From Clostridia bacterium (lineage in GTDB: Bacteria; Bacillota; Clostridia; Oscillospirales; Acutalibacteraceae): a stretch of 55,217 nucleotides of DNA. Shown here piece by piece: positions 4,901-45,784 of this stretch. Every line of letters begins with the position of its first letter. Positions within the stretch are counted from its first letter, which is position 1. Location: the NCBI GenBank assembly GCA_017430145.1, contig JAFRNP010000147.1, positions 1-55,217 on the forward strand, in the 5' to 3' direction. The notes beneath the pieces are model-generated. The model did no database searches and had not been told where the DNA came from. It was given only the letters and a program-made list of their open reading frames with translations. A program made the translations under genes and the position numbers.

Positions 4901-7900
4901 CCCGCCGTGGAGGCGCACCTGGATTCGATCTTCACCCCCGGCACCAGCGTTTTCAAGGATTACACCGCCCATACCATGAAGATGTATTACATGGAACGCG
5001 GCGCCGGCGCCTCGAACCTGCACATGCGCTTCAACCTGACCACCGCCGTGGACGGCCAGCTTCTGCTGAGCAAAACCGTCAGCGGCACCGACAAGGAGGA
5101 TTACGCCAGCGCCGAGTTCCCGTTCCAGATCCACTATCTTGACCGAAACGAGGAGGACACGACCGTCACCCGCCGCGAAGTGACCGACGGAGACGATACC
5201 TACCTGTACTATGAGGGCGTGACCTTTGTAAACTACAAAGGGACGAGCGAACCGGTCCCCTTTGAAGAAAACTATCACGGGTACGAAAACGTCTTCTTCC
5301 TAAAACCGGGAGAGACCGCCGAGATCCAGTTCCCCAGCGACGACATGGTGTACTACATCACGGAGTGCAGGATCAACCCGGATATTTACGACACCGTCAG
5401 CATCAACGACGTGCAAGCGGTGGGCGTTGCAAACGGCGCGTTCTACGATTACTCCTCACAGCAGGAGGTCATCGGACAGCGAAAGGTCGTCAACTTTGAC
5501 AACCACGTGTCTCAGAACGCGCTGCGCACGCTGCTGATCACAAAACGCCTGTTTGACGTAAACTACGAGCCGCTGCATTACGCGGACGACCCCACCGGCT
5601 TCCGCTTCCGGATCTATATCGGCGACGATCTGGACTATTACCGCTTTGACAGCTATTACGTCAAGGATCCGGACGGGTATTACTGCTGGTACAACTATAA
5701 CGACCAGATGTTTGAATCCCTCGGCGTGCTGAACTTTGATCAGCTGACCGACGAGCAGAAGGAGATCTGTACCTTCACAACCTCGCCCTCCGGCGCCGTT
5801 GACAAGATCCCCGCCGATTACAGCGTGGAGATCCGCAACCTGCTCATTGACACGAAATTCCGGATCGTTGAGCGGGATTCCGATATCCCGAAGGGCTACG
5901 ACCTGATCGGTTACGAACGGGTGGACGGTTCCTATTACGCCGAGGACGGCGAAAAGAACGAAGGCGTCATCCGTCCCAACGCCGACCCGCATATCGAGGT
6001 CGACAACCACCGGGGTTGGGGCCTGACCGTGGAAAAGGTCTGGTCAGACAGCAGCTTCATGACCTCGCACGACAACATCTATTTCGCCGTTTACTGCAAA
6101 GGCGAACTTCTCCCGGGCACCGTGCGCCGGCTGAAAACAGTGGTCGATGAGGAAAGCGACGCCCAGACTTCCCTGTATTACTACTTCAAGACTTTGGAGG
6201 ACGGCGCGGAGTTCTCCGACTACACCGTCAGGGAAGTGGAGCTGACCAACCCCGTCATGGATACCGAAGAGGGGTCCGACCGTGTGGCAAGCTACGACTC
6301 GCTCACGGTGATCGGCGGCGACATCCAGCTGCATAACGGCGGCGTCCCGGCGCAGACAGGCGTCCACGGCAACTTCACCTACACCGCCGCGTATTCGACC
6401 GGCGCACCCACCGGACCCAACAGAAACGTGCGCACGGATACGGTCACGAACACACGGCCGGGCATCCGGATCCTCAAAACGGACGCCAACGGGCAGCCGC
6501 TCAGAGGCGCGGTATTCACGCTGAAGGACGGGAGCGGCAACGACGTCACGAAGGCAAGCTACACCTCCGACGCATCCGGCCTCGTCACCACCGCCTATCC
6601 GGAGGACGGCGTCACCTACACGCTGACCGAAATTTCGACCCCCGACGGATATTCCGCCATCATGGACGGGATCAAACTGACCGTGAACGACGGCGTACTG
6701 ACCGTGACCAACGCGAATGAGCAGGAAGGCACGCTCTCATCCGCCGTTACGGTCTCCGAACCGGCTGCAGACGGCACGATCACCATCACGATCAAAAACT
6801 ATCAGTCTTCATTCTCCGCAATTAAGGTGGACGCGGACAGCACGAATAAAACGCCGATCGAGGACGCCCACTTTGCGCTGTACCGGCAGGTGGACGGCAG
6901 AGACGGCCCCCGTAAGGATTATTTCCCGATGACCGGCTACGAGGATCTTGTCACCGACGCAAACGGCGTGATCCCGATGATCGACATGAGCCTGCCGGTG
7001 GGCGCGTACTACCTGTGCGAAACAATGACGCCCGACGGCTATCTGGCGCCTGACCATGACGTCTGCTTCTCGATCGACGCAGACGGCGACGTCAACCTTC
7101 TGAACCAGGCGGACTTTGCAGACGAAACCTTCAGCCTGCTCACGTCTCAGATCACCCAGGATCAGGAACTGGTCTATACCCTCTACGTCCCGAACCACCG
7201 GTCGTTCCTGTCGGTCGAGGTGGAACCGCAGACGTTTGTGGCGGACTTCGGGCTTGACATCCTTTACAACGTAAAGACGAACAACTACCAGGTTCCCGAC
7301 GGGACAGATTACGTCTATATCGGCATCACCGACAAGAGCAACTGGGACGACTACGGCACGCAGAAACGCCCGCGGCTGATCGGCGAGACCGAAGAACAGT
7401 ATGCGGCCGCGCTTGAAAGAGACAAGGCGACGGAGACCCAGGCGGAAAGACAGGCAAGGATAGCCGAAGAAAACGCGTACCAGGGCGTATTCGAAGGCGC
7501 ATTCGGTAAGCTGACGCTGGACGCCCAGGGCAACACCCGCTATGAGATCGGCAGCATGAAGTTTACCGCAGAGGATGAATTCTGCCTGGTGGCGAAAGTC
7601 AGACAGATCGGCGAAACCGTAACAACGGTGTACGTCTGCGAGATGCTGACCTACCTGCCGGCGACGACCATCTACTACGAGGACGATTTCCTGCTCGACG
7701 ACATTGACCTGCCCATCGACGAAGAGAACATGACGCAGGAAGAGATCGATGCGATCTTAGCGAAGCGGAACTACCACGACGGCGTGGAGGACTCCGAGAC
7801 CGGCCACAACTTCGGCAAGTGGACCAGAGCCGGCTCCGGCCAGCAGCAGACCGCGCAGGCGGCTGACCAGGCATTCTCCAAGGACGCCAACATCTTCGGC

Positions 7901-9880
7901 TACGACCCCGCCTATACCAATTTCGCGACCTTCTCCAACAACTACTCCCACGTGGTCTCCGTCAGTGAGGTCAACAGCAACTCCGGCGGCATGAACGGTT
8001 CCTGGCCCTACATGGAGTTTGACTTCGCGGGTACCGGCTTTGATATCGTCAGTGTGACCGGCGGCGACACGGGCATGTTTACCGTGCGCGTATATTCGAC
8101 CTCCACGGACAGCAACGGCAACGTCGTTGTAGGCAGCCAGGTCAAGAGCCAGGTCGTCGATACCTATTACGGCTACACCTACGGCAGGATCTATATTGAC
8201 GGCAACGGCGCGCCGACGCTGACCCAGACGAACACGCCGGTGTACTTTGCGACAGACGCGATCGTTGAGGAAGAAGCCCAGAACGAAAACGCGACCAACC
8301 TGCTGAAATCCGGCGGCAAGTTCTACACCCGTACGCAGACATACTACGACGTCAACGGCAGCATCACCGAAGAGGTCCGCTACTACAACGCCGAAGGGAA
8401 ACCGACCGCGGACGCCTACTACGTCAAGAAGACGGACGCCTCCGTGGTCATTCCGGAAGCGGAGATCCCGGCGGGCGAAAGCGCACAGTACGAACCGAAC
8501 TACGCCTACGCCTACGGCGAAGGCTGGGTAATGGACAACACCGACGCCACCTCCCTCTACCAGATCCCCGCCATCAAGATCAAGGGACTTGGCTACGGCA
8601 CCTACCGGGCCAAGGTGGAACCGCGGTTCACGACCCGCTACGGCCATTATGAGACGACTGCCGACGGATACAAGTATTATGACCTGTATGTAGACGCCAT
8701 CCGCATCTACGACCCCGCCGGCGTCGGCGACGACGGCACCCTGACCTCCGAAACGATCCGGGAGGCGTACAGCTACTCGAGAGAGTCCTACGAAAAGTTC
8801 ACGACCCTTAAGAGCATGATCGTGGGCGCAGAGACTATGGGCACCATCGACGACGGCACGAAGGCCCCCGAGGACGGCATGGTGGTCGTGGACGGCAGCG
8901 TGCCGCTGACCTCCGCAAGGCTCAACGACTATACGCAGGTCGGACCGAACAACGAGCTGTACCTCAGCAAGAACATGTCGGTGGCGTTTGAACTGAAATC
9001 GACTGTGATCCCGAGCGACATTCAGATCCAGCTCAAAAAGATCAGCTCCGCCATCCCGACGCTCAAGGTCACTTACGTCAACAACAAATCCACCGTATAT
9101 GAACGCACCATTGATATCGCCACCTCCACGGACCTCAGCTACTCGCTGATGAATCTGATCGGCAGAAACAATATCACATGGCAGACGCTGAAATCCGGCG
9201 AAAAGACCTCCGGGCTGATCATCGTTTCCAACGTCGGCGAAACGAACAGCCTGATCTCCGTTACCAACCTGAAATGGACGTTCGGGACCGAGGGGCAGAA
9301 CTATACGAACGTTGACGGCGACTTCGGCGTTTGCGTCAGCAATAAGAACGTGACCAGCGCAAAACGTGTGCTTGCATTTGCGAAGCGCCAGCTCGCGGTC
9401 GCACCCGACGCACAGGAGCCTACGGTCAACGATTCCGGCGAAGTTACTCTGAGCGTTCTGACCTCCGACAGCGTGGAATCGCTGGTCGTGAAAGACCGCG
9501 CCGGCAACGTGATCGACGAAAGCCTGCTGGACATCACCTATGATGATCTGGACGACCAGCAGCGTCAGTGGACGGTGACCGTGTCTGAAGACTATGAGGG
9601 CGCGCTCACCTTCCAGGTGGCGGCTGCAAGCGACGGGCTTGTCTCCGGCGATTCCCTGCAGATCAAGGTCGCCGTTCAGAGCGAGCAGCCGCAAACGACC
9701 GATCCCGAGGACCCGACCGATCCTGATGATCCTGCCGATCCCGCGGATCCGGGCGATCCCGACGAACAGACGCAGCCCACAGGCTTTGCTGCGTTCGTTG
9801 AACGGATCCGCAGCGCATGGCTGCGCCTGATCGACCTGATCAAACTGATCCTGTCCCTGTTCGGGATCAGCTGGTCATAA
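1904..9880 (+). CDS. Giant secreted fibro-slime/Cna-B surface protein (2658 aa)
   Basis: A very large secreted adhesin-like protein. A signal peptide covers residues 1-40 (basic start, Leu-rich core, cleavage near AVFA/A). Residues 42-200 form an N-terminal module of a type I recall from large gut Firmicutes surface proteins. A fibro-slime/PA14-like domain lies at about 780-1050, with the hallmark DDDFWLYVDG and a LGGVHS loop near 910-935. A pilin/isopeptide-like beta domain follows at about 1050-1165. Prealbumin-like SpaA/Cna-B domains are clear at about 1510-1590 and 1630-1720, each with a Lys near the start and E-x-x-x-P-x-G-Y near the end. The C-terminus is an Asp-Pro-rich linker (about 2595-2625) followed by about 34 residues of Leu/Ile-rich amphipathic sequence ending FGISWS. 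There is no LPxTG motif or dockerin, so the attachment mode is unclear. Monocistronic, with its own promoter and terminator. RBS GGAGGG sits 7 nt before the ATG. Role inferred: cell-surface adhesion. Confidence 0.88.
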   Translation: MINKAKTSGFYKKGRVFLCLLLFLLLTTQTLLPSAAVFAAALDDETAAPVMTTLSATCRGSDNKNYRIVASYGEDAGIPADAALSVSAVTSSDATYEGYISEAEQTLNCTIDPETQIQLFDISIVSGTDNSVVYQPAEGSAVDMKVRLADEPETEFGVVHFGEETERIDSAVDGRTLTFEATGFSVYAFVNIVTEDIAVHSVDDFATAPIYLSATTKTGSTYFISSGITNVSQTGPVINRTDKGSTAGAAAYCFEKLEGTDNQFYMYLPGENGAKQYVLITYGGSGKTNASYTSAPGTVFTIVPCAATDRFYLSFPLNNIMHYLNLRKDESGKGFNGSTYNTEGSQLSAYFALPSEEDLLNLDGKTYALATKGDKNSALTENTVNVLTTNIRDDGHSLAANSVPTRANPLNESELTMIKVGGDVDLFTFRLKENNRYQITTQIGNSTKYLSISGNALSLLDEPDDSCLFKITVGTGENQGKIRITNGNTALSLTNGTASGGFSGQNRFSVYEFFSLAEPTEILEDEDFVPYTAIKVSVSDKSQVYNGGQVIVYTRMWNETNKRYEFYAIDHDGSLHRVFDEGDTIRWAGTQINTLLWDFTEYYYYSWLSTLFPNLFPPQPNYYYELQNHYSKKYLAPQYHSGQILSDNTIGINLNGRRYGDYYSTILAWDDYRYDYAGLKAEGDSVVAVPMSRAQDFYFAVMEDPIAQEFSTVETVDNNQHGIRMRMVNFQGPKYGTNGGAGGRDQGQTDVMGTGTDYPPDNNFKIPTRDLVSNKLADDGYPVATLTDKSLQELFGAATDANHLFIKSIYDESGYFEYNCCQTFATLLEGGNFRVYNQLGTPETGTISQGHGQFMPYNDIDPALISDYTNLTNVYNQALPANDPRLGETLYKIPFQDAVYHFGMEMEASFIQSKNGLDAWGHDIIFEFAGDDDFWLYVDGELVLDLGGVHSALVGKINFRTGEVVIPDPEKTDGSSTTTTLRALFEKNYCERNGLQPGDPAVEAHLDSIFTPGTSVFKDYTAHTMKMYYMERGAGASNLHMRFNLTTAVDGQLLLSKTVSGTDKEDYASAEFPFQIHYLDRNEEDTTVTRREVTDGDDTYLYYEGVTFVNYKGTSEPVPFEENYHGYENVFFLKPGETAEIQFPSDDMVYYITECRINPDIYDTVSINDVQAVGVANGAFYDYSSQQEVIGQRKVVNFDNHVSQNALRTLLITKRLFDVNYEPLHYADDPTGFRFRIYIGDDLDYYRFDSYYVKDPDGYYCWYNYNDQMFESLGVLNFDQLTDEQKEICTFTTSPSGAVDKIPADYSVEIRNLLIDTKFRIVERDSDIPKGYDLIGYERVDGSYYAEDGEKNEGVIRPNADPHIEVDNHRGWGLTVEKVWSDSSFMTSHDNIYFAVYCKGELLPGTVRRLKTVVDEESDAQTSLYYYFKTLEDGAEFSDYTVREVELTNPVMDTEEGSDRVASYDSLTVIGGDIQLHNGGVPAQTGVHGNFTYTAAYSTGAPTGPNRNVRTDTVTNTRPGIRILKTDANGQPLRGAVFTLKDGSGNDVTKASYTSDASGLVTTAYPEDGVTYTLTEISTPDGYSAIMDGIKLTVNDGVLTVTNANEQEGTLSSAVTVSEPAADGTITITIKNYQSSFSAIKVDADSTNKTPIEDAHFALYRQVDGRDGPRKDYFPMTGYEDLVTDANGVIPMIDMSLPVGAYYLCETMTPDGYLAPDHDVCFSIDADGDVNLLNQADFADETFSLLTSQITQDQELVYTLYVPNHRSFLSVEVEPQTFVADFGLDILYNVKTNNYQVPDGTDYVYIGITDKSNWDDYGTQKRPRLIGETEEQYAAALERDKATETQAERQARIAEENAYQGVFEGAFGKLTLDAQGNTRYEIGSMKFTAEDEFCLVAKVRQIGETVTTVYVCEMLTYLPATTIYYEDDFLLDDIDLPIDEENMTQEEIDAILAKRNYHDGVEDSETGHNFGKWTRAGSGQQQTAQAADQAFSKDANIFGYDPAYTNFATFSNNYSHVVSVSEVNSNSGGMNGSWPYMEFDFAGTGFDIVSVTGGDTGMFTVRVYSTSTDSNGNVVVGSQVKSQVVDTYYGYTYGRIYIDGNGAPTLTQTNTPVYFATDAIVEEEAQNENATNLLKSGGKFYTRTQTYYDVNGSITEEVRYYNAEGKPTADAYYVKKTDASVVIPEAEIPAGESAQYEPNYAYAYGEGWVMDNTDATSLYQIPAIKIKGLGYGTYRAKVEPRFTTRYGHYETTADGYKYYDLYVDAIRIYDPAGVGDDGTLTSETIREAYSYSRESYEKFTTLKSMIVGAETMGTIDDGTKAPEDGMVVVDGSVPLTSARLNDYTQVGPNNELYLSKNMSVAFELKSTVIPSDIQIQLKKISSAIPTLKVTYVNNKSTVYERTIDIATSTDLSYSLMNLIGRNNITWQTLKSGEKTSGLIIVSNVGETNSLISVTNLKWTFGTEGQNYTNVDGDFGVCVSNKNVTSAKRVLAFAKRQLAVAPDAQEPTVNDSGEVTLSVLTSDSVESLVVKDRAGNVIDESLLDITYDDLDDQQRQWTVTVSEDYEGALTFQVAAASDGLVSGDSLQIKVAVQSEQPQTTDPEDPTDPDDPADPADPGDPDEQTQPTGFAAFVERIRSAWLRLIDLIKLILSLFGISWS

Positions 9881-10024: not shown

Positions 10025-10067
10025 AAAATAAAATTAAGAAAGCCGGTCCGTCAAAAACAGACCGGCT
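10025..10067 (-). terminator. Terminator of the peptide-modification operon
   Basis: On the minus strand, AGCCGGTC and GACCGGCT form an 8-bp stem (10067-10041) followed by TTCTTAATTTT. It lies just after the PqqD stop codon and converges with the surface-gene terminator, insulating the two units. Confidence 0.8.
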
Positions 10068-10090
10068 GCAAACCGTTTATATCCAAACTT

Positions 10091-10372
10091 TTAATCGGCG
10101 GCGTCATCGTCCAACAGGATCCCGTACTGCTGAAGCTGTTCAAAAAACGCAAGGGTATCCTGACGGGCGATCTCTATATCGACCGCAAACTGCTCCGCCA
10201 AAAGCGCGGCGGCGCCGTCGGCGTTTTCACCTTTAACGATCGCATCGATCAGGAGCGCCCCGGTTTCCGAAAGCGTAAAGATCCCGTTGAATTCCTTCGT
10301 CTTTTCACCGATGGGCATCAGCAGCGTCTCGCCGCAGACTTTTCTGCAGATAAAATCCTCACTCAGCTTCAA
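10091..10372 (-). CDS. PqqD-family RiPP recognition protein (93 aa)
   Basis: A stand-alone PqqD-like winged-helix protein. In RiPP pathways such proteins bind the leader peptide and present the precursor to the radical SAM enzyme. Visible evidence: the length is typical, the N-terminus is short (KLSEDFICRKVCGETLLMPI), and a central N-G-x-F-x-L-S-E-T-G-A segment matches the family's beta-turn-helix pattern (usually L-N-x-T-A-A-x-I). A helical C-terminal half follows. The start codon is TTG at 10372, with GGGGGAGAAGG just upstream. It overlaps the end of the radical SAM gene by 14 bp, which implies translational coupling and supports a shared pathway. Last gene of the five-gene operon. Confidence 0.85.
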   Translation of the reverse strand: MKLSEDFICRKVCGETLLMPIGEKTKEFNGIFTLSETGALLIDAIVKGENADGAAALLAEQFAVDIEIARQDTLAFFEQLQQYGILLDDDAAD

Positions 10373-11495
10373 TTGCCTTCTCCCCCTTGTTCAGACGCAA
10401 CAGTTCCTGCTCGATGCAGCTGCTCATTTCGCACAGATACGCCGGCGCCGTCGAAAAATCTCCGGTCTCTGCAAAGCAGGCAGCGGGACAGACGCAGCAG
10501 TAGGGCCTGAGCGAACAGTTCGTGCACTTCTTCGGCATACGAACCGTTTGCATCAACGCCCGCGTTTTCTGCCAGCAGGACAAAAAGCCTTCCTCCGGCA
10601 CGCTTCCCACAGGCAGCGGGACCATCCCGCACATCATCATCTGCCCTTTTGTATCGATCCAGTAAGCGGTGTGACCGGCACGGCAGCGCACCCCTTCCCC
10701 CCGGGCGTTCCCGTCGTCACACTCACTGACGCGCAATAGCTTTCTCAGTTCTTCCGCCGATTCCGGGGTCGGCGTTTTGCCGCACATCAGGTCCCACTGT
10801 ACCCGCAGTTTCGCAGCGGCTTCCGGGGAAAGTCTCCCCTGCGCCGCCGTCGGGGACGTCCTGCGCACCGGCGGATACATGTATACCGACGTCTGGCAGT
10901 GGAGATCCAGTTCCCGCACAAGGGCAGCGATCTCCCGGAAACGGTCGGCGTTATATTCCGTAAAGGAGACGTTCAGCTTGATCTGTACGCCCGCAGCTTT
11001 CATGCGACGGATATTGGAAACGACGTTTTCATACGCATCCGCCCCGCACTGTCTGCGGTATCCCTCCGGCGTATCCGCATAAAGGGAGATATTCAGGCGC
11101 ATCGGCGGATTTTTTTCAAACAGCGCCGCCGTGTCGCCCGTAATGAGCGAGCCGTTGGTATTGACCGAGATCATCATGCCCAGTTTTTTAAGGCCCGTAT
11201 AGATTTCTGCAAAGTCCCTGCGCAGCAGCGGCTCGCCGCCGGTCAGCAGCAAAAAAACCGTTCCGGCGTCCGCCGCCTCTTTTCCGATCGAAAGCCACTG
11301 CGCAGCCGTCAGCTCCCCTGCCTGCGGGTCCTTTGCGCCCCCGTCATGGATATAGCACATCCGGCAATTGAAGTTGCAGCCGGACGTCAATTCAAAGGTC
11401 CCCGAGACCGGCGTCCCGAGTCTTCTGCCGATGGCGTGCAGCTTTCTCGACACAGGCGGCTCCGACGCGGTTGTAACAGCTTGCAGTTCGTTCAT
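10359..11495 (-). CDS. Radical SAM/SPASM peptide-modifying enzyme (378 aa)
   Basis: A radical SAM enzyme with a C-terminal SPASM-type auxiliary cluster domain. The CxxxCxxC motif that binds the SAM-cleaving 4Fe-4S cluster is C40-C44-C47 (CNFNCRMC). A GGEPLLR segment follows as the SAM-binding GGE motif. The C-terminal third carries the SPASM pattern: a Cys, about 13 residues, G-x4-C near residues 268-287, then a Cys-rich CTNCSLRPYCCVCPAAC block near 325-341 and two later cysteines. Enzymes of this layout install thioether or carbon-carbon crosslinks, or other changes, on ribosomal peptides. The adjacent PqqD-like protein and the Cys-containing small peptide at the head of the operon make peptide modification the likely role. 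The exact chemistry cannot be read from sequence. RBS GGAAGAGAG precedes the ATG. Confidence 0.9.
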   Translation of the reverse strand: MNELQAVTTASEPPVSRKLHAIGRRLGTPVSGTFELTSGCNFNCRMCYIHDGGAKDPQAGELTAAQWLSIGKEAADAGTVFLLLTGGEPLLRRDFAEIYTGLKKLGMMISVNTNGSLITGDTAALFEKNPPMRLNISLYADTPEGYRRQCGADAYENVVSNIRRMKAAGVQIKLNVSFTEYNADRFREIAALVRELDLHCQTSVYMYPPVRRTSPTAAQGRLSPEAAAKLRVQWDLMCGKTPTPESAEELRKLLRVSECDDGNARGEGVRCRAGHTAYWIDTKGQMMMCGMVPLPVGSVPEEGFLSCWQKTRALMQTVRMPKKCTNCSLRPYCCVCPAACFAETGDFSTAPAYLCEMSSCIEQELLRLNKGEKAIEAE

Positions 11496-11518
11496 TTCTC
11501 TCTTCCTTCACACGTCGG

Positions 11519-12370
11519 TCAAAGCGTCCCGAGGGCACGGGAAAGCGCCTCCACCGCACCGGTATCCGGCCGGCAAACCAAACGGAAGCAGCGGCATCCC
11601 GCCGCAACATCCTCCGTCAGAAGCACCGCGCGTTCCTGCGCGGCAGGATCCTCCCGGGTATAGCTGATGCAGCCGATCAGCTCCTTGAACCCCGCGATCG
11701 CCGAAAGCTGCGCCACGGCGTTTTTTTCTCCTTTTTCAGGAAAAACGATCGCCCGGATCGGACGCACCGTGTTCATACAGCTCTTAGAGGACCCGCAGAA
11801 CGGAATCCCGTAGGCAAGGAACCCATCGCCCGACCGAAGGATCAGCGCGCGGTCGCCGTTGATGACCACAGCGCTGCGATGCGTCTGCCAAAGCGTCGCC
11901 TGCGTGGTTTTTCCGGCGCCGCTGGGGCCTGCAAACAGGATCCCGCCGTCGCCGTCGCCGACAAACGCTGCGTGGAAAACGCCGGCGCCTTCCTCCAGAA
12001 ACAGGTCCGGCAGCCCGACGGCGTCAAATACCATCGTATCCCAAAACGGCGCGTCATACTGTACGTACAACAAAACTTCCCGCCCCTGCCGAACGGCGCA
12101 GGCATACGGCACGTGCGCCCGGTGCTGCGCGTCGGAAAAACAGGTATAGTCGTAGTTCTCCCCGCCGAAACGGATCCTGTGGTGGTGCCCGCCGCACTGA
12201 AGGGAGATCCCGGCAGGCGCCGGCAGTTTTGCCCGCTGCACGCGCACCAGGAAGTCGGGAGGTACGCCGTCGTCGATACGAAACAGCGGGAAAAAATCCG
12301 CGTCAAGGATCGGCTCTTCGGATTCCAGCCGCAAAACGAACACGCCGATCCGGTAAGTCTTAAGATTCAT
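11519..12370 (-). CDS. HPr kinase-like (peptide kinase?) protein (283 aa)
   Basis: A P-loop protein related to the C-terminal kinase half of HPr kinase/phosphorylase. The Walker A motif GPSGAGKTT lies near residues 149-157, preceded by FHAAFVGDGDGGILFA, and a VVINGDRALI strand takes the place of the second phosphate-handling acidic motif. The N-terminal half is all-beta and unlike the DRTGG domain of true HprK, so the protein is not carbon-catabolite HprK. Related HPrK-like kinases occur in some lasso-peptide clusters (paeninodin PadeK type), where they phosphorylate the precursor's C-terminal serine. Here the operon's small peptide also ends in Ser, so a similar role is plausible but inferred. 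It overlaps the lipoprotein gene by 11 bp and has no obvious RBS of its own, so translational coupling is likely. Confidence 0.78.
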   Translation of the reverse strand: MNLKTYRIGVFVLRLESEEPILDADFFPLFRIDDGVPPDFLVRVQRAKLPAPAGISLQCGGHHHRIRFGGENYDYTCFSDAQHRAHVPYACAVRQGREVLLYVQYDAPFWDTMVFDAVGLPDLFLEEGAGVFHAAFVGDGDGGILFAGPSGAGKTTQATLWQTHRSAVVINGDRALILRSGDGFLAYGIPFCGSSKSCMNTVRPIRAIVFPEKGEKNAVAQLSAIAGFKELIGCISYTREDPAAQERAVLLTEDVAAGCRCFRLVCRPDTGAVEALSRALGTL

Positions 12371-13052
12371 AGGTCGAAAATACTACTCTGCTGGTATTCG
12401 GATGTATGCTGCGGGCCTGGGCCTGCCGGATCTCTCCGGCTGGGATCTCTTTGAACAGCGTCCGGTAGGTGATCCCGCCGAGATATCCGTTTGCATCCAG
12501 ATTCTTATAGTAGATATAAACGTTTTTGAGCGTTTCGTCCGTCAGATTCTCGACGTTCAGAAAACCTTCGGCATAGGTGATCTTCAGCGCTTCCAGATGT
12601 ACGGACGGGGTCTCGTAAAACGGCGCGGCAGAAATGACCTCCGCGCCGAGGATCTGTCCGTTTGCAAACGGCGTTTTCTCTTCGCAAAGGACCGTCATCA
12701 CGTCCCCCGCAAAAAGTGTGGAGGCGGAAAAAGTACAGTTCCCGCCGGCGGTCTCCAGCGTAAAATGCAGATACTGATAATGGACGTCGGAACGGTTCTC
12801 AAGCCTGACGGCGCAGATCCCTTCGCATTCGTCGTTGCTGCCGTCCTCCACGTAGGGGCCGCTGTATGAGAAAAGCTCTGTTATATAGATCCCGTCAGAA
12901 AGCAAAAAACCGTCCGCGTCGGCAACAGGATCCGTCTTCCCATCGGAAAGAGAAGGGGCGGCCGGATCGGTATTTCTGTCGTCGGTGCAGGCGGAAAAAG
13001 GGATCCAAAGCACAAGCAGGAGGCTGATAACAAAAAACAGCTTTTTTTTCAT
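12360..13052 (-). CDS. Predicted lipoprotein of the peptide operon (230 aa)
   Basis: A secreted, probably lipid-anchored protein. A lipoprotein signal covers residues 1-22 (MKKK, hydrophobic core, lipobox-like FSAC with C22), followed by an Asp/Pro/Ser-rich low-complexity linker. The rest (about 50-230) looks like two beta-rich modules with repeated 'N-x-S/T-D' turns, a VRLENRSDVHYQYL strand and a VENLTDETLKNVYIYYKN segment, resembling Ig-like or FxLYD-type domains. I assign no enzymatic function. It lies between the precursor-like peptide and the kinase, so a role in binding, exporting or protecting against the peptide product is possible but unproven. RBS AAAGGA lies upstream of the ATG. 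Confidence 0.75.
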   Translation of the reverse strand: MKKKLFFVISLLLVLWIPFSACTDDRNTDPAAPSLSDGKTDPVADADGFLLSDGIYITELFSYSGPYVEDGSNDECEGICAVRLENRSDVHYQYLHFTLETAGGNCTFSASTLFAGDVMTVLCEEKTPFANGQILGAEVISAAPFYETPSVHLEALKITYAEGFLNVENLTDETLKNVYIYYKNLDANGYLGGITYRTLFKEIPAGEIRQAQARSIHPNTSRVVFSTYES

Positions 13053-13108
13053 CGGGGCGTCCTTTGTCCGGTTCTTAATGGCATTCGGTGGCTTTGCTGT
13101 CTATTCGG

Positions 13109-13342
13109 TCAGGAACCGAAAACGTTGCTCCCCGCGGCGGGAACGTGGTAACAAATATAGTAGTCGTCGTTGGACCAGTCACAATTCATCTCTGTAAAAA
13201 CCGTTTCATTGTTCCACTCCGGAATTTCGATCGGACAGAAAAATTCCGCAAAGGAAATATCCATGGTGCACCCTGCAGAGACATTGGTGCCCATAGAAAG
13301 CTCCTGAAAAGCGATGATCGGTTTTACATAATTCTTTGCCAT
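13109..13342 (-). CDS. Candidate RiPP precursor peptide (77 aa)
   Basis: First gene of the operon. The N-terminus Y5-V-K-P8 resembles the YxxP leader motif that recognition proteins bind in lasso and related precursors. The leader-like part runs to about residue 20. The remainder holds four cysteines (C25, C36, C54, C64), many aromatic and acidic residues and the block ICYHVP (63-68), and it ends NVFGS with a C-terminal serine (S77). It resembles small clostridial peptides I remember with a K-P near the N-terminus and a CYHVP block, but I cannot verify this family without a search. A good RBS (GAGGTG, 8 nt before the ATG) and a consensus promoter support expression. The next gene starts 56 nt downstream. 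Modification type, cleavage site and activity are unknown. Confidence 0.78.
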   Translation of the reverse strand: MAKNYVKPIIAFQELSMGTNVSAGCTMDISFAEFFCPIEIPEWNNETVFTEMNCDWSNDDYYICYHVPAAGSNVFGS

Positions 13343-13402
13343 TTATCGTTTCACCTCAAAGATCTTTGCGCCAGGCAGCTGCGCATATATCTTTACAAAA
13401 TA

Positions 13403-13431
13403 ATTATAGCACGCAAATATAAAAGTTTCAA
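13403..13431 (-). promoter_or_regulatory. Promoter of the peptide-modification operon
   Basis: On the minus strand, TTGAAA (13431-13426), a 17-nt spacer and a perfect TATAAT (13408-13403). The predicted start is about 55 nt before the precursor ATG. This is among the best promoter matches in the window and suggests the precursor is made in quantity. Confidence 0.8.
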
Positions 13432-13563: not shown

Positions 13564-14982
13564 TTAAGAGATCCGCTTCCAGGAAGCAGGATCCTCCAGA
13601 TCCACCGATGCGCGGAGGATCAGACGGGCGTCGGTGGCCGTGACGGTTTTGTCGGCGTCCACGTCGCAGGCAAGGAACTGCACGGAGCCTTCCCCGTAGG
13701 TTTCCAGATCCACGGATCTGCGCAGCGCCAGCCGCGCGTCCACTGCGGTGATCTCACCGTCCAGGTCCACGTCGCCGGGCATATAATCTTCCGGCTGCTC
13801 CGGTTCCTCGGGATCTTCGGGATCTACGGGATCTTCGGGATCTACGGGATCTACGGGATCCTCCGGAGACTGTATTCCGGCAGTGATAACATCATTTTTT
13901 TCCTCGATCACGATCGCGTTCCACTGTTCTTCGGACCCGGCATAGTCAAGGTCGCGGATCCCATTGCAGTTATAAAACGCGCCTTCATTGATACGGGTCA
14001 GAGACGTCGGCAGAGAGACCTCGGCCGCGGCATAACAATTACGGAAAGCGCCCTTATCGACTTCGGCAATACCCTCGCCGAGGATGATCGCCTTTGCACC
14101 GGAACAGCTGTGGAAGGTCCCCTCGCCGATCGTTTGCACCGAACCGGGAACATTAATCTCCTCCAGATGATAGCAGTGGTAAAATGCAAAGATACCCAGA
14201 CCCGTCAGAGAATCCGGAAGCTGCGCCTTTCTGAGCGCATAGCAATCCATAAAGGCGTGATGCCCGATCGTTGTAAGGCCTTGAGGCAGCGTGATCTCCG
14301 GCAGCGTCTCACAGGAGCGGAACGCAAAATTCCCGACCGTTGTCAAACTGTCCGGCAGCGTCACTTTTTGAAGCGATTTGCAGCCGTAAAAACAATAGAT
14401 CGGCAGTTCCTTTACGCCTTCGGGGACCGAGATCTCGGCAAGCGACTCACATTCGGCAAACATGAAGGAGGAAAGCGCCGTCAGCGTAGACGGCAGCGTG
14501 GCCTTCTGCAGCGACTTGCACTGATAAAACGCGTGTTCCCCGGTCTGCGTCAACCCCTCCGGCAGCAGCGCCTCCTTCAGAGCGGTACATTCGCGGAAGG
14601 CATGCGCGCCGAGATTCACAAGCCCGCTGCCGAAGTTGACGGTTTCCAGGTTTTCACACCGGAAAAAAGCATAGGATCCGATGCTTTTCAACGAATCCGG
14701 CAGCGAAACCGTTTTCAGGGTCGCAAGTTCGGAAAACGCCATCTTTGAGACGGTCGTCACACCCTCTTCGATAACGACGGCAGTGATCCCGCCGAGATCC
14801 GCCCAGGGAAATTCGGTATAGCCGTGCATCTCCCCCTCGCCGCTTACTCTCAGCGTCCCTTCCGCATCCAAAGACCAGGTCAGGTTGTCGCCGCATCTTC
14901 CGGATGCGGGAGAAGCGAAAGAGACGGTAATAAATGAAAAAACAAACAGAACAGATAAAAGTACGGAAACAGTTTTTTTCAT
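13564..14982 (-). CDS. Secreted BspA-like LRR protein with dockerin (472 aa)
   Basis: A signal peptide (MKKTVSVLLSVLFVFSFITVSFA) is followed by about a dozen 23-residue leucine-rich repeats of the Treponema/BspA (LRR_5) type, with the pattern L-x-x-I/V-x-x-x-A-F-x-x-C-x-x-L. A Pro-Asp-Glu linker comes next, then a type I dockerin with two calcium loops (DVDLDGEITAVDA and DVDADKTVTATDA). LRR_5 proteins usually bind host or polymer surfaces; the dockerin should attach it to a cohesin-bearing scaffold, none of which is in this window. The linker is encoded by 9-bp tandem repeats (13809-13862). The frame extends to an ATG at 14994 that sits inside an 86-bp repeat shared with capG. I prefer the ATG at 14982 because it begins a normal signal peptide, but neither ATG has a close RBS. 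No strong terminator separates it from capF upstream, so it may be transcribed with the capsule locus. Confidence 0.87.
   Translation of the reverse strand: MKKTVSVLLSVLFVFSFITVSFASPASGRCGDNLTWSLDAEGTLRVSGEGEMHGYTEFPWADLGGITAVVIEEGVTTVSKMAFSELATLKTVSLPDSLKSIGSYAFFRCENLETVNFGSGLVNLGAHAFRECTALKEALLPEGLTQTGEHAFYQCKSLQKATLPSTLTALSSFMFAECESLAEISVPEGVKELPIYCFYGCKSLQKVTLPDSLTTVGNFAFRSCETLPEITLPQGLTTIGHHAFMDCYALRKAQLPDSLTGLGIFAFYHCYHLEEINVPGSVQTIGEGTFHSCSGAKAIILGEGIAEVDKGAFRNCYAAAEVSLPTSLTRINEGAFYNCNGIRDLDYAGSEEQWNAIVIEEKNDVITAGIQSPEDPVDPVDPEDPVDPEDPEEPEQPEDYMPGDVDLDGEITAVDARLALRRSVDLETYGEGSVQFLACDVDADKTVTATDARLILRASVDLEDPASWKRIS
13809..13862 (-). repeat. Six 9-bp tandem repeats (Pro-Asp-Glu/Val linker)
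   Basis: Six consecutive 9-bp units (cgggatctt/cgggatcta/cgggatcct on the plus strand) encode the D-P-(E/V) linker between the LRR domain and the dockerin. Copy number is likely variable by slippage. Confidence 0.85.
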
Positions 14983-14985
14983 GAC

Positions 14986-15071
14986 AATCGCCATGCGATT
15001 CAGAATTCACACAAAAAGGGATGATAATCCGGCCTTTTATGCCCGAATCGCTCCTTTCTTCAGATTTTTCA
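14986..15071 (-). repeat. 86-bp leader repeat, copy A (before the LRR-dockerin gene)
   Basis: Aligns without gaps to 17488-17573 with 77 of 86 bases identical. In the minus-strand sense it holds GAAAGGAG, an inverted pair GCGATTC/GAATCGC about 40 nt apart, and at its end AATCGC-ATG-GCGATT, a 6-bp hairpin with an ATG in the loop. That ATG (14994) is in frame with the LRR gene. Function unknown: structured leader, small palindromic repeat or miniature element. Confidence 0.85.
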
Positions 15072-17514: not shown

Positions 17515-17573
17515 AAAAAGGGATAAAAATCCGGCTTTTTATGCCTGAATCTCTCCTTTCTTCCGATTTTTCA
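17488..17573 (-). repeat. 86-bp leader repeat, copy B (before capG)
   Basis: Gapless partner of 14986-15071 (77 of 86 identical). The inverted pair is kept with shifted bases (GATTCAG/CTGAATC here), and the terminal AATCGC-ATG-GCGATT hairpin is identical. The repeat begins exactly at the stop codon of the preceding nucleotidyltransferase-like gene and ends next to the first ATG of the capG core. Confidence 0.85.
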
Positions 17574-18782
17574 AACGATGTCCTCCTTCGGATCGTCAAA
17601 CAGCCGCAGCTTTTCATAGAGCTCCGTGCGCGCCTTTGCGCCCGCCAGCGCTTCCCGCGCGTACAGCTTGGGCCGCTTGCCCGCCGCGACGCGCACGGCA
17701 TAGCGCGCGGTATAGAACGCCAGGCCCACGGGGACCAAAGGTTTTATTTTCTTTGAGACCGGCCATTTTTGGTAAACCATATCGGTAAGCACCGTTACCA
17801 TACGGCGCATAGAGGAATCCGTCTTTTTGCCGGCGGTGATCAGATAGGCCTGCCGGCTGCGGACGACCGCCTTCTGCCCGAAATTGCCGCCGGCAAACAG
17901 GTCGGCAAGCAGCGCGTCCGAAACCGCTTCATCCGCTTCCTTTGCAAATCCCACCGGCGTGACACCCAGATACCGCACGCAGATATCCGTGAGGCAGCAG
18001 GCAAAGGACCAGAGTCCGAGCTGTTTGAGCGGCGTTTCAAACAGTGCCCGGAACTGCGTTTCCGGCAGCGTCTGGATATAGACCGCCCAGTCGCACAGGT
18101 GCCGCAGCCCGATCCCGCTGTGGGTCAGGTGGTGCGCGGTATGCAGCAGCAGGATCAACCCGTGGTGGAACACGTCCGGCAGGCGCATTTCGCCGAAATC
18201 CGTATGCCGCACGGCGGACCTTCCGATCAGATCCGTAAAATACGACCGGCACCTGTCCGCCAGCGCGCTGTCGGGGACCCCCGGGATCTCATAATGCAGC
18301 TCGAACCGGCAGCCGTCCTTACGGAACACGTGGTGAAAGCTGTGGCTCATTTTTTCGGGGACAAACCCTTCTTTCAACAGCAGCGCCTCGGTGCGCTCCA
18401 CGTAAGCAGGATCCACATAAAAATCGATATCCCCCAGCTGCCGCATCTCCGGCTGCGGGTACCAGATAGCGCTGGCATACCCCTTGATAAGCACGTGTCC
18501 GATCCCTGCGTCCTCCAACAGGCAGCTCAGCTTTGCATGGGACACGGCAGTACGGATATTTGTTGCCAGAAACCGGTTGACGCAATAGTGGATCTCCTCC
18601 AGCAGCGCCGGCGGGAACGCTTCGGCGTCGGCGTCCCTGAGCGCGGTCAGAAACACCGCCTGATAATTCGCTTCCGTCCACAACGCCGCAGGATCATCGA
18701 TCCGGACCCGTCTTTTCGCATCAAACAGGGTATTGGCAAGCAGATCCAGCAGCGTTTGCTGTATCGGGTTCAGATGCGCCAT
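17571..18782 (-). CDS. NTP_transf_5-type nucleotidyltransferase family protein (403 aa)
   Basis: Matches the poorly characterised nucleotidyltransferase family (PF14907 type) found in both exopolysaccharide and RiPP loci. The nucleotidyltransferase-like core has HVLIKGYASAIWY followed by LGDIDFYVDP (about residues 115-125), whose two acidic residues fit the metal-binding DxD of the pol-beta fold. The flanks are helical, with a Cys/His-containing H-HGLILLLHTAHHLTHSGIGLRHLCDW segment near 195-225. The true substrate is unknown for the family. It starts 1 bp after the capE stop and lies directly before the leader repeat of capG, so it is embedded in the UDP-FucNAc gene group. Modification of a sugar or a carrier is possible but not shown. 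Confidence 0.8.
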   Translation of the reverse strand: MAHLNPIQQTLLDLLANTLFDAKRRVRIDDPAALWTEANYQAVFLTALRDADAEAFPPALLEEIHYCVNRFLATNIRTAVSHAKLSCLLEDAGIGHVLIKGYASAIWYPQPEMRQLGDIDFYVDPAYVERTEALLLKEGFVPEKMSHSFHHVFRKDGCRFELHYEIPGVPDSALADRCRSYFTDLIGRSAVRHTDFGEMRLPDVFHHGLILLLHTAHHLTHSGIGLRHLCDWAVYIQTLPETQFRALFETPLKQLGLWSFACCLTDICVRYLGVTPVGFAKEADEAVSDALLADLFAGGNFGQKAVVRSRQAYLITAGKKTDSSMRRMVTVLTDMVYQKWPVSKKIKPLVPVGLAFYTARYAVRVAAGKRPKLYAREALAGAKARTELYEKLRLFDDPKEDIV

Positions 18783-22956: not shown

Positions 22957-24270
22957 TTACGATGAAAAAGTTTTTCCGCTCCGCAGCTGACGAATGGACA
23001 TCTTGCCGAAATCACACTCGCCCCACCAGGAATGGTGCCAGCGGAGATTCCGGTATTCTTTGTTTTCTACGATATGGAAATGGACGATCCTGTCGACGGC
23101 GGAATCCAGATACTCCTCCCCGTCGCGGTTATACCCGCAAAGCTCCAGCCTGAGCTTGTAGATCCCGGGGGCAAGAACGGCGGTATGGCAAGTGCCTTCA
23201 AACAGGTTTTCGCCCTCTTTCAGGCGGAAATCTTCCGTCGTCGTATCCGTCATACCCAACAGGGAATCTTCCTTATCATAATAGATGATGCGGAAAAACA
23301 TGGCGTCGCTGTCTTGTTTTGCCCGGACCTGCAAAAAGAAATGCATATCGCTCCCCTGCGGAATATCAAAGCCGTTCTTCTCTGCAAACTGGAACTTTTC
23401 AAGCATAAACTGCGCGTCCGGCTGATGCAGAGAGATCTGGTTCGGCGCAAACTCCCATTTCTCCATATACTGTTCTTCGCCGATCTGCGGCAGATAGAGT
23501 TCGATCGCCTTATCCGGGTCGCCGTCAAAAACGATTTTTCCGTGCTCCATCACAATGCACCTGCTGCAAAGCTGGCGGATCGTCTGCATATTGTGGCTGA
23601 CGTACAGGATCGTCCTGCCCTCGTCCTCCGCCGCCAGACGCATGCGCTCGATGCACTTTTTCTGGAACGCCATATCGCCGACCGCCAGCACCTCGTCCAT
23701 GATCATGATCTCACTGTCCAGATGCGACGCGACTGCAAAGCCGAGCTTGACGTGCATACCGCTGGAGTACCGCTTGACCGGAGTATCGATAAACTGCCCC
23801 ACCTCGGAGAACTCCACGATCTTATCAAACCGTTCCGCGATCTCCGCTTTCGTGAGGCCTAAGATCGCGCCGTTGAGATAGACGTTTTCCCGTCCCGTCA
23901 GCTCTCCGTGGAAACCGGTACCCACCTCCAGCATGGAGGTGATCCTGCCGTTCATGCAGATCTCACCGGTCGTCGGGGTCGTAACGCGGCAGATCAGCTT
24001 CAGGAGCGTGGATTTGCCCGCGCCGTTGTGGCCGATGATCCCGACCCGCTCGCCTTTTCTGATTTCGAGCGAAATATCGTCAAGCGCAAGGAAGCGCTCG
24101 TTTTTCGTATGCGCCTTTTGCCCGATCTTCAGATTCGGGTCCTCTTTTCCCCTGAGACGCGCAAACTTTGACTGCAGCTCCTCACGCAGGGTGGCGCCGC
24201 CGATCATGCCGAGGCGGTACTCTTTTGAAACGTGCGAAATTTTGATCGCCAAATCGTTCATACGGTTCAA
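22957..24270 (-). CDS. wzt: Wzt-type polysaccharide ABC transporter ATPase (437 aa)
   Basis: ATP-binding subunit of an O-antigen/teichoic-acid-type exporter. The nucleotide-binding domain spans about 1-260: Walker A GHNGAGKST near residue 78, the family-specific E-V-G-T-G-F-H-x-E-L-T-G-R-E-N block, signature YSSGM, and Walker B IMIMDEVLAVGD. After it comes a separate beta-rich C-terminal domain (about 275-437) like the Wzt carbohydrate-binding domain that recognises the end of the finished glycan. It pairs with the permease gene 19 bp upstream. Full-length Wzt with this domain usually implies that a completed lipid-linked polymer, or a capped glycan, is exported. Confidence 0.92.
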   Translation of the reverse strand: MNRMNDLAIKISHVSKEYRLGMIGGATLREELQSKFARLRGKEDPNLKIGQKAHTKNERFLALDDISLEIRKGERVGIIGHNGAGKSTLLKLICRVTTPTTGEICMNGRITSMLEVGTGFHGELTGRENVYLNGAILGLTKAEIAERFDKIVEFSEVGQFIDTPVKRYSSGMHVKLGFAVASHLDSEIMIMDEVLAVGDMAFQKKCIERMRLAAEDEGRTILYVSHNMQTIRQLCSRCIVMEHGKIVFDGDPDKAIELYLPQIGEEQYMEKWEFAPNQISLHQPDAQFMLEKFQFAEKNGFDIPQGSDMHFFLQVRAKQDSDAMFFRIIYYDKEDSLLGMTDTTTEDFRLKEGENLFEGTCHTAVLAPGIYKLRLELCGYNRDGEEYLDSAVDRIVHFHIVENKEYRNLRWHHSWWGECDFGKMSIRQLRSGKTFSS

Positions 24271-24289
24271 CTCCTTCCCGAATCCTGCG

Positions 24290-25150: not shown

Positions 25151-25154
25151 CCCG

Positions 25155-44044: not shown

Positions 44045-45784
44045 TTATTCCTCGTCAAAAGTCGGTATCGTTTTGTTTTCCAGCGGCGTCAGGCGCCCTT
44101 CGGCGGTCATGTCGCAGACCCGGGTACAATGGGCAAGCACGCTGTTGCGGTGTGTGGTCAGGATCACGATCTTTTTCGGGTCATCCCGGATGATATTGGA
44201 CAGGACCCGCGCCTCGGTCCCGGGGTCAAGGGCGCTTGTCGCTTCGTCCAGCAGCATGATCGGCGCCCCCCGCAGGACCGCGCGGGCGATCAGGAAACGC
44301 TGCAGCTGCCCGCGGGAAAGGTTGCTGCCGTTTTCACCGACCTGGCAGTTCAGCCCCTCCGGACGGGCGCTGATAAAATCGTCCAGGCACACAAGGCCCA
44401 ATACGTGCATCAGCTCATCGTCGGTGGCGTCGGGCTTTACAAGCCGCAGGTTCTCAGCCGCCGTGCCCGAAAACAGGAGGCTTTCCTGCGGCACGTACGA
44501 AAAGAAACGGCGGGTACTGTCGGAAATATCGATCGTCTCCCCCGCCACATGCAGCGCGGCATGGCCGGACGACGGGTGAAGAAGCCCCAGCAGGACCTTC
44601 AGAAACGTGGTCTTTCCGTTGCCGGATCGCCCCACCACCGCCAGCCGTTCCCCCGGGGCGATACGCAAAGTGATATCCCGCAGCACGTCCCTGCCGGTAT
44701 TGCGGTAGGAAAAGGTCACGCCGCTCACGTCGACCGTAACGCCGCCGTCCGCCTTAGCAAGCAGCGCCTCGGCACGTTCCCGGTCCGCGTCCGTCTCCGC
44801 CTCAAAGCGGGTGATCTCCATGATCCTGCCGGCGCCCGTGGACACGGAGACCATCTGCGGCGCCAGAGAAGCCAGCGACGAGAAGGAGGACGTCAGCATG
44901 CCGGAGATCTGCAGGAACAGCGTCATGGTCCCCACGGTGATCAGCTTGTTCCAAAGGCGGTAGATCGCCCAGCCGTAGCAGGCGTAAGAGACAAGCATCC
45001 CGAGAAAGGACAGGACCATCGTCATCAGGATATTGAATTTTTCATATTTCAGCCGCACCGTCCGGTAGGCTTCCGTCAGCTGCCGGAAGGACCCGATGTA
45101 CTGGTTAAGCAGGTCGAAGGCCTTGATGATCTGCAGGTTCTGCAGCGCCTCCTCCGAAAAGGAAAGGACCTTGCCGTTCATTTCCCGGCTCTCCTTATTG
45201 AATTCCCGGATCGTTTTGACCAGAAACCGGGAGGAGAACACGAAAAACGGGGCGCTGAGCAGCGCCAGAAACGCCATCACCCGGTCGTAATACAGCACGA
45301 CCGCAAAGGAGAGCACAAAGGTCAGCGCTTTGGAAAAGGCGCTGGGAATAAAATTGATCACCCCGGAGGTAACGGTCGACACGTCCCCCTCCAGGCGGTT
45401 GAGCAGCTCGCCGGAGTGGAAGACGCCGATCTTTTCCCATTCGGCGCGCACCACCCGGGAAAAGATCTCGTTGCGCAGCTCGATGCCGACCCGGGTGCTC
45501 AGTACAGCGGTGATCCGCTCGGAAAGCGCCTGAAACAGGATCTGGGCAACCATCAGCCCGATGACCGCCGCCGCGGCGTTCCACAGCACGGTCCGGTCGC
45601 CGCTTAAGACCGCGTCGATCAGATATTTGGAGGCCACCGTCCCGCCGACGGACAAAACGGATGCCATGATACCGAAAGCGATGTAGACGAAAATGGTCTG
45701 CTTATACCGTCTGATATAGCCGAAGATCCATTTCCATTCCCGCCAGATCGTTTTCAGGACTTTTTTGTTGAACGCTCTTTTCAT
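44045..45784 (-). CDS. ABC exporter with fused ATPase, possible LLO flippase (579 aa)
   Basis: A type IV ABC half-transporter: six transmembrane helices (about 1-310) then an ATPase domain. Walker A VVGRSGNGKTTFLKV lies near residue 390, signature LSRGQLQRF near 490, and Walker B IMLLDEATSALD after it. The size and order match PglK/MsbA-type exporters. Its position directly before the priming transferase and glycosyltransferases, and the absence of a MOP-type Wzx gene, make it a candidate flippase for the lipid-linked repeat unit. It could instead export another substrate. It overlaps the preceding kinase gene by 4 bp (ATGA). Confidence 0.88.
   Translation of the reverse strand: MKRAFNKKVLKTIWREWKWIFGYIRRYKQTIFVYIAFGIMASVLSVGGTVASKYLIDAVLSGDRTVLWNAAAAVIGLMVAQILFQALSERITAVLSTRVGIELRNEIFSRVVRAEWEKIGVFHSGELLNRLEGDVSTVTSGVINFIPSAFSKALTFVLSFAVVLYYDRVMAFLALLSAPFFVFSSRFLVKTIREFNKESREMNGKVLSFSEEALQNLQIIKAFDLLNQYIGSFRQLTEAYRTVRLKYEKFNILMTMVLSFLGMLVSYACYGWAIYRLWNKLITVGTMTLFLQISGMLTSSFSSLASLAPQMVSVSTGAGRIMEITRFEAETDADRERAEALLAKADGGVTVDVSGVTFSYRNTGRDVLRDITLRIAPGERLAVVGRSGNGKTTFLKVLLGLLHPSSGHAALHVAGETIDISDSTRRFFSYVPQESLLFSGTAAENLRLVKPDATDDELMHVLGLVCLDDFISARPEGLNCQVGENGSNLSRGQLQRFLIARAVLRGAPIMLLDEATSALDPGTEARVLSNIIRDDPKKIVILTTHRNSVLAHCTRVCDMTAEGRLTPLENKTIPTFDEE

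Follow-up and report, generated by a model that had tools for sequence, protein, structure and literature searches.

We analyzed a 55,217-nucleotide stretch of DNA from a member of the Clostridia (assembly GCA_017430145.1, contig JAFRNP010000147.1, positions 1 to 55,217), here called the window, and in particular a cassette of five genes, all on the minus strand at 13342-10091, that includes a small peptide gene. An earlier description made from the sequence alone (the sequence-only reading) had taken positions 10025 to 13431 to be a whole system for a ribosomally synthesized and posttranslationally modified peptide (RiPP). It listed a promoter, a 77-aa Cys-containing peptide, a lipoprotein, an HPr-kinase-like protein, a radical S-adenosylmethionine (SAM)/SPASM enzyme, a PqqD-like protein, and a terminator, with the genes tightly coupled. 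We found all of these features (Table 1), with the kinase assigned from weak family matches. In order from the peptide gene to the PqqD gene, neighbors are 56 nt apart, overlap by 11 nt, are 23 nt apart, and overlap by 14 nt. The RiPP-type cassette stood. Its limits did not, because comparison with other loci made us count the gene for a giant secreted protein as part of the system. We propose, with a probability of roughly 0.5, that the genes form a RiPP pathway and that its product acts jointly with the giant protein at the cell surface.

Table 1. Features of the window, with the cassette first
Feature	Position	Strand	Remarks
Promoter TTGAAA-17-TATAAT	13403..13431	-	11/12 consensus matches, TG before -10
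77-aa precursor peptide (PEP), four Cys	13109..13342	-	Y5, P8, C25, C54, C64, Y65, and S77 invariant in 22 relatives
Lipoprotein (LIPO), weakly FxLYD-like	12360..13052	-	FSAC lipobox by eye; FxLYD 22.2 bits, cutoff 23
Predicted HprK-like kinase (HPRK)	11519..12370	-	His133, P-loop with Lys154, NGD with Asp173
Radical SAM/SPASM enzyme (RSAM)	10359..11495	-	Pfam Radical_SAM 2.2e-24
PqqD-like RiPP recognition element (RRE) protein (PQQD), TTG start	10091..10372	-	PF05402 47.1 bits, cutoff 23.4
Intrinsic terminator, 12-bp stem	10041..10067	-	Sequence scan
Giant secreted protein, 2658 aa	1904..9880	+	Signal-like start by eye, SpaA domain, convergent with cassette
Shared C-terminal module of the giants	7214..9703	+	Residues about 1770-2600; core 8471-9400 with GP.NE.YL
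ATP-binding cassette (ABC) exporter, candidate peptide exporter	44045..45784	-	Subfamily found beside related cassettes
NTP_transf_5 nucleotidyltransferase (PF14907)	17571..18782	-	In polysaccharide operon; possible but unsupported accessory

The cassette is conserved in gut Clostridia. A profile built from 22 precursors found homologues of the peptide in 25 genomes out of 398 from the family and, among 394 drawn from the order, in 10; the source genome is counted in both sets. We assembled 68 distinct peptide loci, including the window (L numbers denote fetched loci and G numbers denote genomes), and counted the partner genes within 6 kb. A radical SAM gene was present at 51 loci, a kinase gene at 50, and a lipoprotein gene at 40; all four partners accompanied the peptide at 31 loci, L058 among them, and none did at 12, and these counts are lower bounds because many contigs end nearby. 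Among the 40 distinct loci found with the peptide profile, 23 had a radical SAM gene, 13 had all four partners, and 12 had none. The sequence-only reading had suggested looking for a conserved gene order in Clostridia, and its proposal depended on peptide homologues occurring near radical SAM and PqqD genes. We found the gene order of the window at 20 of the 68 loci and both of those partners at 44. Shorter or second copies (L001-L020, L029, L084-L112, and L142-L150) were excluded, the L114 peptide being the same as the L025 peptide, and weak family members (L033, L083, L139, L140, L179, and L180) were kept. The L117 kinase was entered by hand, as its fused open reading frame (ORF) carried only a radical SAM label. 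Separately, a close relative (G024) has a radical SAM gene and a kinase gene in synteny with the window (L067, 543-4094), beside leucine-rich repeat-dockerin and epimerase genes; the peptide, lipoprotein, and PqqD genes were not found in that stretch. The cassette there may be a reduced one that perhaps works in trans.

The source genome (3.03 Mb in 180 contigs, 86.6% complete) has one such peptide and one PqqD. Nine promoter-like sites occur in 8 kb against 3.3 expected (SD, 1.7), and the single site with 11 of 12 matches is that of the cassette. Comparison with the sequence ahead of the L066 and L117 peptide genes gave no convincing common promoter site. Terminator-like sites overall were not more common than in shuffled sequence (13 versus 10.4; SD, 2.8).

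The peptide has a YxxPxI leader and Cys residues at positions 25, 36, 54, and 64. Its N terminus is similar to a leader motif of lasso precursors, YxxPxL, as described in parts of PMC10368454. In the alignment of 22 precursors, the residues that never vary (Table 1) include the last one, and C36, F49, and F75 are nearly constant; an NCBIfam search with these 22 precursors gave isolated single matches, none common to them. We found that the last residue is Ser in 63 of 65 complete distinct precursors, some of which otherwise share little. By comparison, of 875 ORFs that span 250 aa or more, taken from any frame of these loci, 57 end in Ser, as do 6 of 89 kinases, 3 of 93 radical SAM enzymes, 7 of 43 lipoproteins, and 3 of 78 PqqD proteins. 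The precursor profile spans the peptide end and so could favor matches that end in Ser; L159 and L160 end in Ser though the profile match stops at 59 and 56 of 80 query positions. Because lasso-peptide kinases of a like kind phosphorylate a C-terminal Ser, we predict that this residue is the likely target of the cassette kinase.

The Ser count omits three incomplete peptides, those of L163 (at a contig end), L136 (early stop), and L138 (two frames). The peptide genes of L136 (6956-7093) and L138 (6743-6974, a frame split) look broken in cassettes that are otherwise complete. One genome, G650, carries four precursors (L155-L158), two of which have a single aromatic residue past the otherwise terminal Ser. 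We also observed very divergent peptides, excluded from the counts, that end in AFLS (L076, 600-830), AFIS (L079, 825-1058), and AFTS (L078, 835-1062); a giant ORF of 1756-2058 aa lies between each of them and the kinase and radical SAM genes.

The HprK-like assignment comes from weak NCBIfam matches (HprK_rel_B, 6.7e-5; ScmC, 3.6e-4), and a 32-member kinase profile searched against the PDB ranked HPr kinases first, with E values of 0.006-0.02. His133, the P-loop with Lys154, and Asp173 were invariant in both kinase alignments. This suggests an active nucleotide-using enzyme. Parts of PMC9266682 report that the lasso kinase PadeK phosphorylates a C-terminal Ser and that this Ser is extremely conserved where the lasso cluster has a homologous kinase. 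Another HprK-like kinase, BsfK, is strongly stimulated by the RRE protein BsfB1, according to parts of PMC10368454. In L117, a 661-aa ORF consists of the kinase fused to the radical SAM enzyme, which suggests that the two share one common substrate. A second apparent fusion, a 680-aa frame in G771, was rejected since it is two separate ORFs. We took E values of 1e-60 or better as strong kinase matches, which separates the kinase from its relatives in Lachnospiraceae (type B). With this threshold, which was chosen after the list was seen, strong matches occurred in 23 of 25 peptide-bearing genomes and in 13 of 373 others, and at least 2 of those 13 carry peptides that the profile search missed (L179 in G149 and L180 in G182). 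All 24 of 24 genomes chosen for carrying cassette genes also had a strong match.

The radical SAM enzyme has C40, C44, and C47 (CxxxCxxC) and seven C-terminal Cys residues, all invariant among 30 relatives. Its Pfam SPASM match is below the cutoff (15.4 versus 21.5 bits), and among PDB entries its profile matches the sactisynthase SkfB best (7.1e-28). We found relatives of it in 14 of 117 genomes, including the source genome; a contig search gave 45 loci, the last few of them remote. The best NCBIfam match of the PqqD-like protein is to lasso PqqD (1.9e-7; 31.2 bits against a cutoff of 70). The lipoprotein is the loosest member of the cassette. At least 7 of its 24 relatives lack the lipobox Cys and look membrane anchored by eye, and its profile gave only weak, unrelated matches in the PDB.

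The clue to the giant partner came from solitary peptide genes, most of which, among those inspected, sit directly behind a very long ORF. We tested this linkage with the 54 peptide genes that have at least 3.2 kb of upstream sequence, retaining L136 and L163. Thirty-three of them begin no more than 150 nt from where a same-strand ORF of at least 1000 aa ends, with distances from a 57-nt overlap to a 45-nt gap. The same arrangement was found for 2 of 534 unlabeled control ORFs of at least 250 aa and for 0 of 80 radical SAM, 0 of 65 PqqD, 3 of 77 kinase, and 1 of 33 lipoprotein genes. At L021, a homologue 44% identical to the window giant lies on the strand of the peptide gene and stops 44 nt upstream of it. 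The giant gene of the window ends 160 nt from the cassette terminator and faces it. Homologues of its product are encoded by 34 giant ORFs at other peptide loci, of which L114 repeats L025.

The giants have in common, wholly or in part, a C-terminal module whose core (23 sequences) contains an invariant GP.NE.YL; the remaining parts vary (SpaA and PA14-like, VWA with Big_2, or beta-galactosidase-like). The core matched no Pfam family and no PDB entry (best E value, 0.55). We found the module in 32 of the 398 genomes searched for the peptide. A strong kinase match was present in 30 of these 32 and in 6 of the 366 genomes without the module (Fisher P = 8e-37), and the peptide was present in 22 of 32 and in 3 of 366 (P = 2e-25), values that overstate independence because the genomes are related. 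Within the genus of the window the module is patchy, being present in G000, G004, and G017 and absent from G005, G013, and G021. We concluded that gene linkage strongly supports a partnership of peptide and giant, in which the peptide may be bound by the giant, be attached to it, or act on it. The window giant also has a fibro-slime match just under the cutoff (44.6 versus 45 bits). Its last 30 residues are hydrophobic, look amphipathic, and lack LPXTG, as in many other giants (by eye), and this tail may be an unusual signal for retention at the surface. We rejected the idea that the giants hide a precursor, as the peptide profile gave nothing significant in them (best E value among the matches listed, 0.13).

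The sequence-only reading had reported no dedicated exporter. Once the whole window was examined, this gave way to a candidate, an ABC exporter. It matches the ABC exporters at the cassettes of L030 (directly after PqqD), L033, L058, L075, and L083 with E values of 1e-118 to 1e-199. The same range covers the exporter that follows the lone peptide gene at L125 and those at the 20 type-B loci where a peptide was seen. The match at L139 is weaker (1.7e-85), and other ABC proteins in the compared loci scored 1e-37 or worse. A 10-sequence profile of the subfamily, at an E value of 1e-100, was matched in 21 of 24 peptide-bearing genomes and in 0 of 28 genomes without the kinase, and G004, which has cassette genes and no found peptide, matched it as well. 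In this test G044, one of the 25 peptide genomes, was left out, and 25 candidates were scored per genome. The 28 controls lie outside the 180 genomes with a kinase match; 18 were directly negative, and 10 were taken as negative from their absence among the matches listed. The only domains of the exporter above the cutoff are ABC_membrane and ABC_tran, with a marginal AAA match, and these would not account for removal of the leader.

The candidate exporter lies within a large exopolysaccharide operon (15119-50600; CpsB, Wzz/Wzc-like proteins, a sugar transferase, and epimerases). This operon also contains an ABC ATPase (Pfam) and a permease (by eye) at 22957-25204 that could serve the polysaccharide. 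At L125, a solitary peptide gene directly precedes the same CpsB-Ig-Wzz-Wzc-exporter order. We rejected the nucleotidyltransferase of the operon as a core part of the system since a homologue lies near the cassette at 2 of the 67 other peptide loci. Polysaccharide genes as a general partner were rejected likewise: they are neighbors in the window, and their core genes are near 10 of the 67. Dockerin-bearing proteins, one of them with BspA-type leucine-rich repeats, flank the operon on both sides (13564-14994 and 50867-51913).

According to our model, the PqqD-like protein would bind the YxxPxI leader and present the peptide to two enzymes. The families of the enzymes make it very probable that the radical SAM enzyme acts on the peptide, and it would most likely cross-link the conserved Cys residues (C25, C36, C54, and C64) to nearby residues. 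Judged in the same way, the target of phosphorylation by the HprK-like kinase is probably the Ser that closes nearly all precursors. Secretion of the product would fall to the ABC exporter, an assignment that gene linkage makes somewhat likely. Outside the cell, the peptide would be held or displayed by the lipoprotein together with the giant's C-terminal module; linkage to the giants suggests such a surface role, for which we see the chances as about balanced. A fuller version makes the peptide a dedicated partner of the surface module. Cross-linked and phosphorylated at its terminal Ser, it would leave the cell through a dedicated ABC protein and then bind or become attached to that module of the giants, in a structural or adhesive role. 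We offer this version tentatively, at somewhat less than even odds.

Several observations weigh against this proposal, beyond the relatedness of the genomes and the late choice of the kinase threshold. At 21 of the 54 tested peptide genes, including that of the window, no giant lies directly upstream, and of the 32 genomes with the module, 2 are without the kinase and 10 gave no peptide. Six peptide loci with a radical SAM gene (L021, L024, L127, L128, L137, and L156) have no kinase gene within 6 kb; the genomes of the first five have a strong kinase match away from the peptide locus. The two complete precursors that depart from a terminal Ser, both in G650, end in Ser-Phe and Ser-Tyr. No leader protease is known for the cassette. 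BsfK, also HprK-like, acts on Ser3 and not on the last residue (parts of PMC10368454). Lasso kinases need a His-Lys-Asp-Asp motif (parts of PMC9266682), and the first Asp of this motif is Gly (NGD) in nearly all members of the cassette family. The cassette kinase may therefore act like the lasso C-terminal-Ser kinases, judging from its sequence, yet it fails one of their defining features. This substitution also favors the view that the HprK-like protein is no peptide kinase and has some other ATP-dependent job or serves as a scaffold, with the Ser kept for recognition, anchoring, or attachment. The weak profile similarity to HPr kinases fits such a view, as does the finding that type-B peptides, which have the same kind of kinase, end in Ser in only 4 of 20 cases (by eye). 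The invariance of His133, Lys154, and Asp173 argues against it, and the conserved last residue closely fits the precedent of C-terminal Ser kinases. We consider a noncatalytic or differently employed protein unlikely, while giving it real weight.

The product could instead be an antibacterial RiPP, a bacteriocin like the sactipeptides or ranthipeptides, with the lipoprotein conferring immunity, the ABC protein exporting the peptide, and the giant serving only for contact or delivery or being a passenger. The four conserved Cys residues, an enzyme nearest in the PDB to SkfB, the frequent small lipoprotein gene, and the exporter are all consistent with this. Bacteriocins change fast, however, and both ends of this peptide are strongly conserved over several bacterial families. 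The tight linkage of the peptide to the surface giants and their module, the solitary peptide genes that sit behind giants with no lipoprotein gene nearby, and NCBIfam matches that do not reach the PapB or SkfB level also speak against it, and we regard a bacteriocin as rather improbable. A phosphorylated Ser might also be a handle for a sugar or polysaccharide added by the nucleotidyltransferase, tying the peptide to exopolysaccharide much as PsmN puts hexoses on phosphorylated Ser in pseudomycoidin (parts of PMC9266682). The PF14907 protein in the neighboring polysaccharide operon and the position of the candidate exporter inside it would suit such a role. The scarcity of nucleotidyltransferase and core polysaccharide genes at the other peptide loci makes it very improbable.

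If our proposal of a surface-acting RiPP is true, two RiPP chemistries are united on one peptide, and the HprK-like proteins of radical SAM clusters gain a specific predicted target, the last residue. It would also connect a RiPP with a giant protein of the cell surface, in a field where an antibiotic has been the default guess; this hints that a modified peptide of this sort may function at the surface and is not necessarily an antibiotic. The GP.NE.YL module is thereby brought to notice, and orphan peptide genes behind giants become readable as part of one system.

Every enzyme of the cassette comes from a known superfamily, and the giant's module is in no Pfam family. In the open-licence full-text literature we found no title on a radical SAM-HprK-PqqD peptide cassette, and the proposed combination of chemistries in a structural or adhesive RiPP was not found in print there. 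The SynChlorMet cassette (ScmC, ScmE, and ScmF) likewise brings HprK-like and radical SAM/SPASM proteins together. Membership in it was rejected on NCBIfam bit scores against their cutoffs (ScmC, 20/125; ScmE, 81/400; ScmF, 68/400), and a literature search on SynChlorMet gave papers on other subjects. Like the sactipeptide and ranthipeptide systems (SkfB and PapB), our cassette pairs a radical SAM-SPASM enzyme with a Cys-containing precursor; unlike them, it has a separate PqqD and a kinase, and its Cys residues are spread over an 80-aa peptide. On the same basis, we rejected membership there (SkfB, 67/300; PapB, 58/340). The type-B relatives in Lachnospiraceae (L038, L040-L056, L059, and L060) have PqqD, a radical SAM enzyme, a peptide, an HprK-like protein, and the exporter subfamily in one operon. 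Their peptides are unrelated to the cassette peptide, being about 110-146 aa long with a GxTGxxW motif, and no lipoprotein was labeled at these loci.

The sequence-only reading had held that this is not a standard lasso set, and we agree. The lasso B2-type protease domain PF13471 had no match in the source genome at its 86.6% completeness, a radical SAM enzyme is present instead, and a lasso cyclase, which was not searched for, is not among the five genes; we therefore rejected lasso membership and kept the lasso systems as an analogy. Butyrivibrio lasso clusters are reported to carry HPr kinase and nucleotidyltransferase genes, and the words "radical SAM" do not occur in that paper (PMC7533575). 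The phosphorylated lasso peptides (paeninodin with PadeK, ThcoK, SyanK, and pseudomycoidin with PsmK) resemble our system in having a PqqD-type RRE protein, a YxxPxL-like leader, an HprK-like kinase, an ABC exporter, and a C-terminal Ser that is conserved where the kinase is present. In contrast to them, the cassette has a radical SAM-SPASM enzyme in place of the leader protease and lasso cyclase, a larger precursor with Cys residues, and NGD for the Asp-Asp pair, and it adds a lipoprotein and a giant surface protein.

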